NCBI GenBank assembly: GCA_027082825.1
Contig: JALWTO010000055.1
Span: forward strand, 1-36,612
Direction of reading: 5' to 3'
Source of the DNA: Acidilobaceae archaeon
GTDB lineage: Archaea; Thermoproteota; Thermoprotei_A; Sulfolobales; Acidilobaceae
Length of the DNA: 36,612 bases
Shown here piece after piece: positions 21,822-25,393 of this stretch; the first letter of the stretch is position 1; every line of letters starts with the position of its first letter. The notes below the pieces were generated by a model. The model searched no databases and had not been told where the DNA came from. It saw nothing but the letters and a program-made list of their open reading frames with translations. The translations under genes were made by a program, and so were the position numbers.

Positions 21822-22565
21822 ATGTCGGTAAGAAAGTATTATCACTTGGACTTAGGGCCAGATTTCCTAGAGGAGCTAAAGGAGACCCTTTCAGATATGG
21901 TAAAGCCTGTGGATTTAGAAGTTTTTGTTGGGCCTAACTGTGAAAGTTGTGAAGATACAATAACCCTAATGAAAACTATAGCTGATTCCTCACCTGAAGT
22001 CAAAGGAAGAAAGCTGATATCCTTGTCAATATATAGTAAGGAAAGAGAGGAAGATCTTAGAATATTCAAGGAAAAGGAGGTTGAAAGAATACCTACAGTG
22101 GGAGTTTTGGATGCAAGGATAATTAGATACACGGGCATTCCAGCAGAGGAAGAGATAAGGGGGCTTATAGAGACTATAATGAGGATTAGCGAAGGAGATT
22201 CTGGATTAGAGGAGGAAACTGGCAGAATTCTGGCTAGTCTTAAAGGAAAAGTTCATATAGAGACCGTGGTAACACCACAATGTCCCTATTGTCCCTATGC
22301 AGTACTTTTAGCTAACATGATGGCTTATGAGGCTTGGAAAAGAAACAATCCTGTTATAATATCAGATACTGTGGAGGCCTATGAAAACCCTGACATAGCA
22401 GATAAATATAACGTGATGAGCGTTCCTGCAATTGCGTTAAATGGCAGACTAGTCTTTGTGGGCGTTCCTTATGAAGAGGATTTCATCAATTACATAAAGG
22501 AGGCTGCAGAGGGCAGGGTAGCTGAGTTAAAGCTAAAGGAGTTTGGAGATAAGACCTCTATTTAG
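21822..22565 (+). CDS. pdo: Protein disulfide oxidoreductase, two-glutaredoxin-fold type
   Basis: The protein has 247 residues and two thioredoxin-like units. Unit 1 has CESC at 40-43 and the cis-proline segment RIPTVG near 89. Unit 2 has CPYC at 154-157 (VTPQCPYCPYA) and SVPAIALNG near 204. This pair is the hallmark of PDO proteins of hyperthermophiles, which form and isomerise disulfides of intracellular proteins. The ATG follows GAGGTGAG with about seven bases spacing. The upstream 265 bases contain AT-rich promoter-like boxes (TTTTTATAAGTAG at about 21673). The stop overlaps the stop of the convergent gene by a few bases. The N-terminal CESC is atypical but keeps both Cys. Confidence 0.92.
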   Translation: MSVRKYYHLDLGPDFLEELKETLSDMVKPVDLEVFVGPNCESCEDTITLMKTIADSSPEVKGRKLISLSIYSKEREEDLRIFKEKEVERIPTVGVLDARIIRYTGIPAEEEIRGLIETIMRISEGDSGLEEETGRILASLKGKVHIETVVTPQCPYCPYAVLLANMMAYEAWKRNNPVIISDTVEAYENPDIADKYNVMSVPAIALNGRLVFVGVPYEEDFINYIKEAAEGRVAELKLKEFGDKTSI

Positions 22566-23785
22566 TCTTTAAACCTTTCTTGCAAAAATTCCCTTGATTT
22601 TATCCTAACTTCTACACATCCCATCCAATGAGGCGGTAGAGGAATTTTTATCAAATCTCTTTCTACGAAGATTTCATGGTTACCTAGAGGATCGCACATC
22701 TCGGCGGACGTAATTCGATGTTTAAATCTAGTTTCGAAGAGCGTTCTTGTAGGAGTTGGATTCCAAACAAATATTTTTAGAGCATCTTCATTCAGCTCAC
22801 CCAAAATAGCTATAACTTCGCCTCTAGGACTTCCCACATATACTCGATCTTGAACCTCTAGAGGGCTTATGACAGTTTCAAGAAGAGCTCGTAGCGAAGA
22901 AATATACGTACCCGACCCCAATACTATTGGGTTTTTGGTTTCGAGGAGAACCTTTCCAGGCTCCATATATATCTTGAAACCCTTTGAAGAGGATAAATAG
23001 AAAGCTCCTTTAGGGCATGAAATAATTAGCAGGAATATGCGCCTAAATTCGATGAGATTGTCATCATTAATTCTCGCAGTTATCCATCCCCCTGGATGAA
23101 GGAGATGTATATAATAATCATAACAGTTCAGTTTCAGTTCTTTTTCGACGGCTCTGTTTAAATAAATGATGTTTTCATTAAGGTTAACTAAGAGATCAAA
23201 GTTTTCTGATGTGGCGAAAAGGTTCCTATGTACAAATAATCTACCTTTGTAATAAATTCTCAGAGGACCTATGTTCATACTCAAATTGTTCTTGGTGGAA
23301 AGCTTTGTACTGTTCGTCTCTGTGGGGCCCAGAGAGCTCCAAGGTTTTAAATTTGGTATGCCAATATATTGGTTATTAAATTTAAGTAGTCCTGGAAGAG
23401 GTTTTTCACAGGCTCTAGGAACCCTAGGAGACCAGTTTAAGGGCCAAAAGAAGAATTTTCCTGAATTTCTACCGGCATCCTTCTTAGAGGATGAGATTTT
23501 TATGTGAGGTTTCCTTAGCAGGGGTGTATAATCAAACAGAGGTTCCTTAGGTAGGACGGCGTATATTTTTCCGTCATTAACAACAACCTCTGTTAAGAGA
23601 TGTTCATCCGTTAATATCACAGGTCTTAGGTAGGCATTTTTAATCTTCCTATAGCCAAGCATGTTAAGTATTATTGAAACTCCTAAAAGTCTTCCTAGGA
23701 CATCACTTTTAACTACTTCTTCTTCATTTTCAGGTTTTAGCCATAAAAAAGGAGAGAACTTTTCGTAGCATTCTTTAGGGTTCAC
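22562..23785 (-). CDS. Unrecognised protein, 407 residues, possible carbohydrate-active beta-sandwich
   Basis: I do not recognise this protein as a whole. It has no signal peptide, membrane segment or Walker motif. The C-terminal part is beta-rich, with FVWNPTPTRTLFETRFKHRI...CDPLGNHEIFVERD...IPLPPHWMGCVEVRI, a pattern that recalls the C-terminal beta-sandwich of GH38-type mannosidases (NPT...v...D..G), but no catalytic domain is seen. The N-terminal 80 residues (ECYEKFSPFLWLKPENEEEV) look like a separate small domain. The GTG at 23785 follows GGAAGGTGA with six bases spacing; another GTG at 23794 overlaps that site. A small hairpin (23795-23807) covers the ribosome site. Confidence 0.75.
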   Translation of the reverse strand: MNPKECYEKFSPFLWLKPENEEEVVKSDVLGRLLGVSIILNMLGYRKIKNAYLRPVILTDEHLLTEVVVNDGKIYAVLPKEPLFDYTPLLRKPHIKISSSKKDAGRNSGKFFFWPLNWSPRVPRACEKPLPGLLKFNNQYIGIPNLKPWSSLGPTETNSTKLSTKNNLSMNIGPLRIYYKGRLFVHRNLFATSENFDLLVNLNENIIYLNRAVEKELKLNCYDYYIHLLHPGGWITARINDDNLIEFRRIFLLIISCPKGAFYLSSSKGFKIYMEPGKVLLETKNPIVLGSGTYISSLRALLETVISPLEVQDRVYVGSPRGEVIAILGELNEDALKIFVWNPTPTRTLFETRFKHRITSAEMCDPLGNHEIFVERDLIKIPLPPHWMGCVEVRIKSREFLQERFKD

Positions 23786-24232
23786 AGTTTTCACCTTCCG
23801 ATGGAAGATATATCTAACCTAAAAATTCTAGGGTAAGGCAGAGGATCGGACCGCGATAATTACCTCATCATTCTGGCTGGGGGCAAGTATCCTCCTCTCC
23901 CCTGCCTCCTCTACTTTAATAATTCCATACCTTTTATTTTTTGAAAAGAGAATCTTCCTCAAACACGATATCTTCGAACTACAAAATTAGGTTTATATTC
24001 CTCGTCCTTGAAGTTTTATAGGAGCGATGAGGAGTTACTCCCGAGTTGAGGCTTTTTGATGATAGAAACTTACCGTTCCCCGCCTACGGCTTTTTAAAGG
24101 TCTCCGTAGGTCGGCTCATCACGGTTTCCCCTGGCTCCCTCCCCGCCCACCTAGGAGCGGGTATCGGAAACCAGGGGTCACCAGTTAGACATATAAAGTG
24201 CTAGAGCTTATAAGTTTATAGGGTATATCCCT
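23786..24232. other. Intergenic stretch up to the TnpB-like gene
   Basis: Positions 23795-23807 form the hairpin CTTCC-GAT-GGAAG over the ribosome site of the 407-residue gene. Positions 23835-23915 are GC-richer (GGACCGCG; GGGGGCAAG; CTCCCCTGCCTCC) with no clear structure. From 24021 the structured 5' block of the TnpB-like element begins. TATA-like CTTATAAGTTTATA (24208-24220) lies just before the TnpB start and would give a leaderless mRNA. No gene is seen here. Confidence 0.5.
24021..24178 (+). ncRNA. Structured GC-rich block, possible RNA of the TnpB-like element
   Basis: Several perfect pairings can be drawn. GATGAG (24026-24031) pairs with CTCATC (24115-24120), enclosing a domain. GGAG/CTCC (24031-24034 with 24038-24041) forms a small hairpin, and CCTACGG/CCGTAGG (24083-24089 with 24104-24110) a larger one. 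GGTTTCC/GGAAACC (24123-24129 with 24166-24172) overlaps the alternative CCCCTGG/CCAGGGG (24128-24134 with 24171-24177). GCTCC/GGAGC and CCCGC/GCGGG lie within that last domain. The density of stems in an AT-rich genome favours a functional RNA or a DNA end structure. A left-end recognition structure is the main alternative. Confidence 0.5.
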
Positions 24233-25357
24233 ATGAATCAAGTTGAGTACATCACGTTAAGACTACCATTTCATGCTACTGGAGATGAGGCTAGGCTTAT
24301 CTACTGGACTACATGGCTATGTAAGATATGTGCTCATAGATTATTGAATAAGGTTATAATAAATCCATTACTTGCTAATTTATCACAGTACGATTTCATT
24401 AAGATGGGGAGAAAGTTATGCTACGACACCATCCCCAACCGTAGGTACATAGATGGAGTCTCAACACTAATACATGCATCTCTACAAAGTGCTAAAGCAT
24501 TAAGAGTAAATGTTACTAAGCTAGAGCTGAAGCCTTGGCTACTATTCCAGTCAGAGGCAGAGCCTTGGGCTAAAGGAAACCTAAATATACAGTTTAGGGA
24601 CTACGATATAGTCAAGATACTTGTTTTCGACAAGGATAAAACAAGTAGAAAAATTACAATAAAACCTGTCATACCTAAAGGCTACACTAAGCTAATTCAT
24701 ACACTAATAGATAGGGCTCTTAGGAAGGAAATCGGCTACCCCGCTAGGGTATATATAAGGGATTACGGTGATGAATTGGAACATCTTTACGGGGAGATAC
24801 AGGTTATGGTGAAGTATAGCTTCTACCTAGAGGTTATGAAGAGGTATGATGAGCCTAAAGGGGATAATATTGCTGGCGTGGACGTTAATGTTGATAGGCT
24901 TAACCTCGTTGTCATTAATAGGAGTGGAGATATAATCTGGAAGTACACAGCTAGATTCCCACAGGTAACGGCTAGAGGTTACCCTAGGAGAAAGGCTTGG
25001 AGTGTTATAGGGGAAGTCATACATAAAGTACTTGAGAACGCTTATTCCCACGGGACATCAGTTATAGCAGTAGAGAATCCAGACATTATTGGCTACCTTA
25101 GGTACTACTGGATAAGGAATGGTAATAGAAAGGCGGGGAACTATAACTACAAAGTGTCGATCTTCAGGAACAGCATTATAGAAAAGATAATATGGAAAGC
25201 ACCACTCTATGGATTAAGAGCAATACCCGTTAATCCAAAGGGAACCACACATTCAGAAGAGCATGAATACATCATGAAACGCTACGGCTTAGATAAGCAC
25301 ATAGCATCAGCATACCTCATAGCCCTAAAGGCAAGAAGAAGCCTACGAAGACCTTAA
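24233..25357 (+). CDS. tnpB: TnpB-like RuvC nuclease lacking a zinc ribbon
   Basis: The protein has 374 residues. The three RuvC motifs are visible: GVDVNVDRLNLVVINRSG with D217, TSVIAVENPDIIG with E281, and GLDKHIASAYLIAL with D354. TnpB proteins are RNA-guided DNA endonucleases encoded in IS200/IS605-type elements. The CxxC...CxxC zinc ribbon normally found between motifs II and III is absent; that segment reads VNPKGTTHSEEHEYIMKRYG with no Cys. The N-terminal 200 residues would be the WED/REC-type region. The ATG at 24233 lies some 25 bases after a TATA-like box, so the mRNA is probably leaderless. It is likely still an active nuclease, but DNA-cleavage ability is inferred from the triad only. 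Confidence 0.82.
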   Translation: MNQVEYITLRLPFHATGDEARLIYWTTWLCKICAHRLLNKVIINPLLANLSQYDFIKMGRKLCYDTIPNRRYIDGVSTLIHASLQSAKALRVNVTKLELKPWLLFQSEAEPWAKGNLNIQFRDYDIVKILVFDKDKTSRKITIKPVIPKGYTKLIHTLIDRALRKEIGYPARVYIRDYGDELEHLYGEIQVMVKYSFYLEVMKRYDEPKGDNIAGVDVNVDRLNLVVINRSGDIIWKYTARFPQVTARGYPRRKAWSVIGEVIHKVLENAYSHGTSVIAVENPDIIGYLRYYWIRNGNRKAGNYNYKVSIFRNSIIEKIIWKAPLYGLRAIPVNPKGTTHSEEHEYIMKRYGLDKHIASAYLIALKARRSLRRP

Positions 25358-25359
25358 AG

Positions 25360-25393
25360 GACCTACAGGTCAGAAACTGTAGCAAACCCGACC
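25360..25393 (+). ncRNA. Competing hairpins after tnpB, possible guide-RNA scaffold end
   Basis: Two mutually exclusive hairpins lie directly after the tnpB stop: GACCT-AC-AGGTC (25360-25371) and CTACAG with CTGTAG (25363-25368 with 25377-25382). A further loop-to-downstream pairing GTC/GAC (25369-25371 with 25390-25392) could make a pseudoknot. In known TnpB systems the guide RNA (reRNA/omega RNA) is made from this end, with its guide taken from flanking DNA. Direct proof is lacking. Confidence 0.4.

Follow-up and report, generated by a model that had tools for sequence, protein, structure and literature searches.

The window, that is, the whole stretch of 36,612 nucleotides of Acidilobaceae DNA that was analysed, contains a tnpB-like gene preceded by a compact, G+C-rich structured block. 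To the left, a 410-aa neighbour gene on the minus strand (22562-23794) gave no Pfam match at E values up to 1. The features to which we refer below are as follows.

24021-24071, no strand: host flank, outside the feature; the repeat common to relatives starts at 24072.
24053-24072, minus strand: presumed guide of 20 nt in host DNA, reading out of the element over its edge; placed from the boundary and from known IS607 reRNAs (PMC10711439), with its length assumed.
24073-24184, minus strand: putative guide-RNA (omegaRNA/reRNA) scaffold, with a predicted 5' end near 24184 and a structured 3' end at the element edge, 24073; drawn from the conserved covarying fold, the minus-strand preference and Sso133 in relatives, the exact RNA ends being predictions.
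24072-24125, minus strand: 3' domain, in which P1 (24072-24076 with 24121-24125) closes hairpin P2 (24080-24089 with 24104-24114) at a kink-turn-like junction; from pair counts, base identities and the junction motif.
24128-24177, minus strand: 5' domain, comprising P3 (24128-24134 with 24171-24177, inner part 24137-24139 with 24166-24168) and P4 (24142-24146 with 24157-24161); from pair counts, base identities and Sso133 matches in relatives.
24207-24214, no strand: CTTATAAG, a palindromic TATA-like box between RNA and gene, candidate two-way promoter.
24221-24231, no strand: palindrome GGGTATATCCC just before the start codon, candidate operator, with palindromes of the same shape in relatives.
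24233-25357, plus strand: tnpB-like gene, 374 aa, with RuvC residues D217/E281/D354 and no zinc-finger cysteines.
25304-25386, plus strand: right end of the element, overlapping the gene end and retained in short copies.
25387-25389, minus strand: CCC (GGG on the minus strand), target DNA, presumed target-adjacent motif and crossover dinucleotide; from the empty sites and flank counts of relatives.

A preliminary description of this DNA had placed a highly structured block at 24021-24178 and named two alternative pairings within it. Both pairings are present in the window, GGTTTCC (24123-24129) with GGAAACC (24166-24172) and CCCCTGG (24128-24134) with CCAGGGG (24171-24177), and the block is indeed the structured end of a TnpB-like element, in a location unusual for TnpB. 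The limits had to be redrawn. When 23960-24232 was searched against 60 relatives, similarity started abruptly at 24072 and frequently stopped at 24183, so that the first 51 bases (24021-24071), a third of the block as originally drawn, are host flank. Nor did strong structure on the plus strand bear out for 24021-24178, which folds no better than its shuffles (z -0.85, with 37 of 200 equally good) because it straddles the element boundary. The wider segment 24000-24225 gave z values of -1.82 (plus) and -2.69 (minus), and the corrected limits 24072-24187 gave -4.2 and -4.8, respectively; the G+C content of this last segment is 0.61, against about 0.38-0.43 in the surrounding DNA. The structured block is 24072-24184, and it begins exactly at the left edge of a mobile element. 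In many matching loci the left block is closely followed by a piece matching approximately 25304-25389. Such paired pieces, together with the sharp start at 24072, indicate a mobile element that spans about 24073-25386 and has short MITE-like derivatives. The complete genome G013, for example, carries nine near-identical short copies (L150-L158) and two full copies (L104 and L105); one of the short copies, L156, adjoins the apparent 3' half of a tRNA gene.

The conservation of the fold was followed with two covariance models, R1 (10 copies) and R2 (34 matches). R1 located the block beside most of the full-length relatives subsequently tested. R2, which was trained on many of the same blocks that it then finds, matched next to the tnpB-like gene in 39 of the 39 fetched loci with the closest genes, every E value being below 2e-11; these loci (the window, L076, L077, L079 and L081-L115) had been selected for the similarity of their proteins. 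Across the order, R2 finds a match in 80 of 211 genomes; in a sample of 398 genomes from the whole phylum it does so in 46, of which 26 lie outside the order, and a single genome has up to 15 copies. Among 45 aligned matches, 89.4% of cells pair, compared with 68.9% after shuffling, and both sides have changed in 252 cells against 74.1 in shuffles, with such changes in 27 of 30 pairs; the size of this covariation effect is inflated, since the alignment was fitted to the structure. The signal is lost when partners in the same alignment are shifted by 1 to 3 columns, and compensatory changes in P1 can be seen by eye (CCGT/ACGG, GCGT/ACGC, CCGC/GCGG). Overall, the block next to the tnpB-like gene keeps its fold through a great deal of compensatory change. 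The check for covarying stems upstream of homologous genes, which the preliminary description had proposed, thus came out positive, and the conserved fold agrees with its suggestion that the block may be an RNA. At one locus (L079:2703-2983) two RNA blocks lie head to head in opposite orientation, and the promoter region of the first contains the second; this is a nested or recombined copy. In many subfamilies the P2 loop is long and AT-rich with short repeats, as judged by eye (full-length L088, L092, L098, L113 and others), and these repeats are perhaps recombinase binding sites inside the RNA gene.

The strand of the conserved molecule can be approached through imperfect pairs. An A opposite a C on the plus strand is a G.U pair on the minus strand, so that an excess of A.C over G.T points to the minus strand. 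In 38 full-element blocks we counted 81 A.C and 34 G.T cells, one weak column pair contributing 19 of the 81. When only pairs that are at least 80% Watson-Crick were taken, the ratios in two copy sets were 55:30 and 62:38, to which we attach no p-value, as the copies are related. The minus strand has the more stable fold in 36 of the 38 blocks and the lower shuffle-corrected z in 32 (mean -5.03 vs. -3.41); these 38-row counts omit seven of the 45 rows, namely L116, L117, the second copies in L077 and L079 and three other matches, one of which lies on the minus strand of the window, and the pair-change count above used all 45. As judged from these sequence comparisons, the molecule under selection is most likely a minus-strand RNA that starts near 24184, between block and gene, and whose structured part ends at the left edge. 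The preliminary description had spoken of a large 5' structure; as the RNA lies on the opposite strand, it is not one of the tnpB transcript.

The element ends were delimited as follows. The base directly left of CCGTT varies (A or G) among the near-identical short copies of G013 and is therefore target DNA; since 24072 is this base in the window, the outermost pair of P1 may not count. Joined-flank searches recovered two empty sites in a related genome, G021, both from one genome pair and one subfamily. At both, the insert is exactly CCGTTC...TTTCTG, placed without target duplication between a purine and a pre-existing C run (CCCCC and CCCC), so CCCC, or GGGG on the RNA strand, was there beforehand. 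The empty site of the window's own copy was searched for and not found. Flanks were compared in the 53 of 123 copies whose right end lay at a plausible distance (any pattern match was present in 63, some clearly by chance). On the right, CC is forced by the pattern and only later positions are informative: C follows in 46 and then C or T in 44. On the left, a purine occupies -1 in 52 of the 53, with hardly any other preference. Such flanks imply that an empty site, read on the minus strand, consists of RGGG and, after it, the stretch that would form the 3' guide of the minus-strand RNA. As far as the flanks can tell, motif and guide RNA occupy opposite ends, which is the TnpB layout; reading the guide from the right end is disfavoured, because this would call for a left-flank motif, which is absent. 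A canonical 3' guide RNA of the tnpB-like gene was likewise rejected, the right end being without structure: in the 17 full-length elements whose right end was recognised, the gene 3' end has a mean z of -0.18 vs. -5.80 for the left block. Since the gene 3' end shows no structure, the block is probably the guide RNA of the element itself, and probably not the second RNA or riboregulator that had been suggested. Depending on the subfamily, the right ends carry GAAACAG or GTTTCTG beside the CC junction, as if the heptamer had been inverted between lineages.

IS607 elements characteristically insert without duplication and have a GG/CC dinucleotide, the overlap dinucleotide of IS607 being reported as GG (PMC4058570), and on these grounds we assign the element to the IS607 type. 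The genome of the window also harbours a canonical IS607 element, L227, with tnpA followed by tnpB. Its left end begins GGCTGTTTC, which is the reverse complement of the common right end of the inverted-type elements (as we call those arranged as in the window), GAAACAGCC; the canonical element of G021 begins GGGGCAGAAAC, a reverse match to the G013 right end GTTTCTGCCCC, and the ends of L227 and L234 alike are reverse complements of inverted-type right ends. AAACG stands at the expected element end in all seven canonical elements examined. R2 matches three of the seven weakly (L227, L226 and L234, with E values of 5e-4, 7e-4 and 0.12), always in sense and located where tnpB ends, at its 3' side, and gave no match in the other four. 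In the IS607 systems described so far, according to the accounts we cite, the reRNA is some 150 nt long, extends over the edge of the transposon (PMC10711439) and lies downstream of the gene (PMC11061315). A pseudoknot has also been reported in it (PMC10711439); no counterpart was identified in the block fold. Since the ends and the RNA are IS607-like, the gene is the part that has been turned round. Judging by sequence, the element is thus of the IS607 type, and its tnpB, which lacks the zinc finger, points the opposite way from what would function as the guide RNA. No serine recombinase is encoded between 24072 and 25389, and one is present in 19 of 26 carrier genomes, that of the window included. 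In G013, with its 11 copies, neither a Y1 transposase nor a serine recombinase was detected, and the mobilising enzyme there may have been lost or be of another kind.

The protein of the window has no Pfam match, and a PDB sequence search with it returned none; a PDB search with the family profile gave a single weak, unrelated match (E 0.5). Within the family, NCBIfam guided_TnpB matches 12 of 39 members (best 1.6e-8) and Cas12f2 matches 13 of 39. D217 and E281 are invariant and D354 nearly invariant among 39 sequences. The predicted structure (mean pLDDT 89.5) aligns with Cas12f 9i8y (Z 21.0, rmsd 3.9, 313 residues) and with ISDra2 TnpB 8exa (Z 17.8, rmsd 3.4, 288 residues), and the model accordingly shows the overall TnpB/Cas12f fold with the RuvC catalytic D, E and D. 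A C-terminal zinc finger with two CxxC motifs is common, though not universal, among TnpB nucleases. None of 40 inverted-type proteins has two C-terminal CxxC motifs, and the zinc finger is lacking, as CxxC, also in five of the seven canonical IS607 TnpBs examined. Relatives of the gene occur in 68 of 214 genomes of the order. In a tree with long branches, the 40 inverted-type and seven canonical proteins fall on opposite sides of one branch with support 100/100, which is expected if the inverted arrangement arose once and persisted. In a deeper branch that includes Sulfolobaceae-like genomes (L117, L118, L119 and L120), the RNA block and the tnpB-like gene are separated by a small ORF; by eye, its product has the look of an AbrB-type DNA-binding protein.

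The space between block and gene offers two further leads. Counting from a reference point set at the inner end of the block, 25 of 35 usable elements have a TATA-like octamer at a distance of 31-36 nt, and the palindrome seen in the window might serve as a promoter in both directions, which we regard as suggestive only. The palindromes preceding the start codon vary in letters and keep their shape across subfamilies (GGGTATATCCC, GGGGATTCCCC, GGCTATAGCC). Within the RNA, the junction of P1 and P2 deserves a comment. A kink-turn consists of a C-stem and a three-nucleotide bulge followed by GA opposite GA, and is bound by archaeal L7Ae. On the minus strand, the junction shows the C-stem, three free bases and GA in 102 of 123 copies, and the opposite side is GA in 86, AA in 35 and something else in two. 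By its sequence the junction would fit a kink-turn of the L7Ae-bound type, and we take this as a lead. A C/D-box sRNA was also considered for the minus-strand GUGAUGA; the kink-turn part alone was retained.

At curated thresholds no Rfam family matches the window, its block included, and the sub-threshold matches are weak and unrelated; Sso133 (RF02814, Sulfolobus sRNA133) does not match the window block either. It does match the minus strand of the L105 block in G013, with 37.3 bits against a cut-off of 44 (E 6e-4 in a wide search and 4.7e-6 for the block alone), and all 11 copies of that genome on the same strand, with 36-39 bits against the same cut-off. The Sulfolobaceae-like genomes searched gave 30 matches above the cut-off. 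For 14 of these there is a tnpB-like gene, among the genes listed, within 2.5 kb on the expected side, and in all 14 the Sso133 match is antisense to it and upstream of it. The other 16 are without a tnpB-like gene among those listed, as would be expected of short copies. Sso133 is said to have been found as a cDNA from S. solfataricus, by either Tang et al. in 2005 or Zago et al. in 2005, the RNA set of the latter being reportedly L7Ae-associated. If so, the minus strand is transcribed in Sulfolobus. On the reading proposed below, Sso133 is likely the guide RNA of such elements.

The boundaries of the block, its conserved fold, its strand, the geometry of the empty sites and the canonical-IS607-like ends can all be read from the sequences, and from them we propose the following scenario. 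Very probably, 24073-24184 on the minus strand encodes the guide RNA of an IS607-type element in which tnpB is inverted relative to that RNA. The RNA would be read from a promoter between itself and the tnpB-like gene, in the direction leading away from that gene, fold into two hairpin domains, with its structured part ending at the left edge, and continue into host DNA, which would serve as a 3' guide. The TnpB-like protein would bind this RNA and cut guide-matching sites that carry GGG or GGGG on their 5' side, such sites being the places that the element has left. The motif would then stand at the opposite element end, as is usual for TnpB, with RNA and mRNA as separate divergent transcripts, and short copies that keep only both ends would act as independent guide-RNA genes.

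An alternative is that the minus-strand RNA exists but, instead of serving as a guide, regulates the element or host genes, as an antisense RNA or in trans. There is a precedent of sorts: the RNA-257 family of S. solfataricus, homologous to the distal part of the tnpB-type gene of ISC1904, is reported as an antisense regulator (PMC3674436), and a divergent orientation from tnpB would suit such a role. The RNA as placed, however, does not overlap the mRNA; it ends at the element edge with a conserved motif on the far side, and a related RNA occupies the canonical guide-RNA position. We consider regulation an unlikely explanation, and RNA-257, coming from an IS607-type (ISC1904) tnpB-like gene, may itself be the canonical sense counterpart, that is, a TnpB guide RNA.

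Two other explanations fare far worse than a guide RNA. One holds that the block is a DNA end only, recognised by a transposase, with its hairpins formed in single-stranded or cruciform DNA. It would account for the position at an element end and for the retention of the block in short copies, as for any transposase site, and for the resemblance, by eye, of some P2 loop repeats to recombinase sites. It does not explain the strand asymmetry or the membership of Sso133 in an RNA family. Y1 transposases, which need end hairpins, are found in only two of the 26 carrier genomes and, to our knowledge, the ends used by serine recombinases need no multi-helix fold of 110 nt. A plain DNA hairpin end was rejected on the strand tests and the scarcity of Y1, and we hold this explanation to be highly improbable. 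The same very low probability goes to a sense 5' RNA of the tnpB transcript, either HEARO-like with a 5' guide or a leader riboregulator, which would lie, like the RNA of IscB, upstream of an ORF at the element edge, and which was rejected on the strand tests (the plus strand folds worse in 36 of the 38 blocks) and on the position of the TATA-like box that separates block from gene: in 18 of the 35 elements its distance to the start codon is 21-26 nt, so that the tnpB mRNA probably starts after the block.

In the TnpB systems described in the sources available to us, guide and nuclease are tied together, the guide RNA being derived from the tnpB transcript at its 3' end, and among titles and abstracts of the open-licence literature we found none that reports a TnpB guide RNA running antisense to its own tnpB or diverging from it. 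It is tempting to suppose, and we do so tentatively, that the inverted-type elements represent a long-lived TnpB branch whose guide RNA has been freed from its own mRNA, one nuclease gene serving many scattered short-copy guide-RNA genes, each addressing its own insertion site, and that a kink-turn in the RNA could recruit L7Ae. If true, such a branch would form a natural intermediate between self-guiding TnpB and CRISPR-Cas12, and it would account for Sso133 of Sulfolobus. An old clade with separate, divergent guide and nuclease transcripts would open the question of how guides became independent, as they are in CRISPR, to direct tests, and this in archaea that can be cultured. It would also add a compact, zinc-finger-less, heat-adapted nuclease family and suggest that short mobile copies act as a dispersed guide set.

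Finally, we would like to compare the inverted-type elements with known systems. With IS607 elements that carry tnpA and tnpB (ISXfa1, PMC10711439, and ISFba1, PMC11061315, as described there; L227, L234 and L226) they share the end sequences, the GG/CC junction, the absence of duplication, an AACG-type scaffold 3' end, the motif at the other end and, as we propose, a guide RNA running over one edge. Unlike these, they have no tnpA, they encode a different, zinc-finger-less TnpB clade, and their tnpB is inverted relative to the RNA, which would therefore be a separate antisense transcript. The TnpB of IS200/IS605 elements (ISDra2; PMC10278001) resembles theirs in predicted fold, in catalytic residues and in having motif and guide at opposite ends. 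In those elements, by the same account, the tnpB mRNA yields the RNA from its 3' end and Y1 provides mobility (PMC10278001), whereas the inverted-type RNA is antisense, at the left end, and 24 of the 26 carriers have no Y1. Cas12f provides the nearest solved folds and a guide RNA transcribed apart from the nuclease mRNA, as proposed here, but inverted-type guides would derive from insertion flanks. Sso133 lies on the same strand and in the same place beside tnpB-like genes, and covers the 5' domain only (73 nt); the Rfam record consulted assigns it no function. The HEARO RNA of IscB is a structured RNA upstream of an ORF at the element edge, in sense and with a 5' guide; the inverted-type RNA has the same location, but it is antisense and its proposed guide is at the 3' end.
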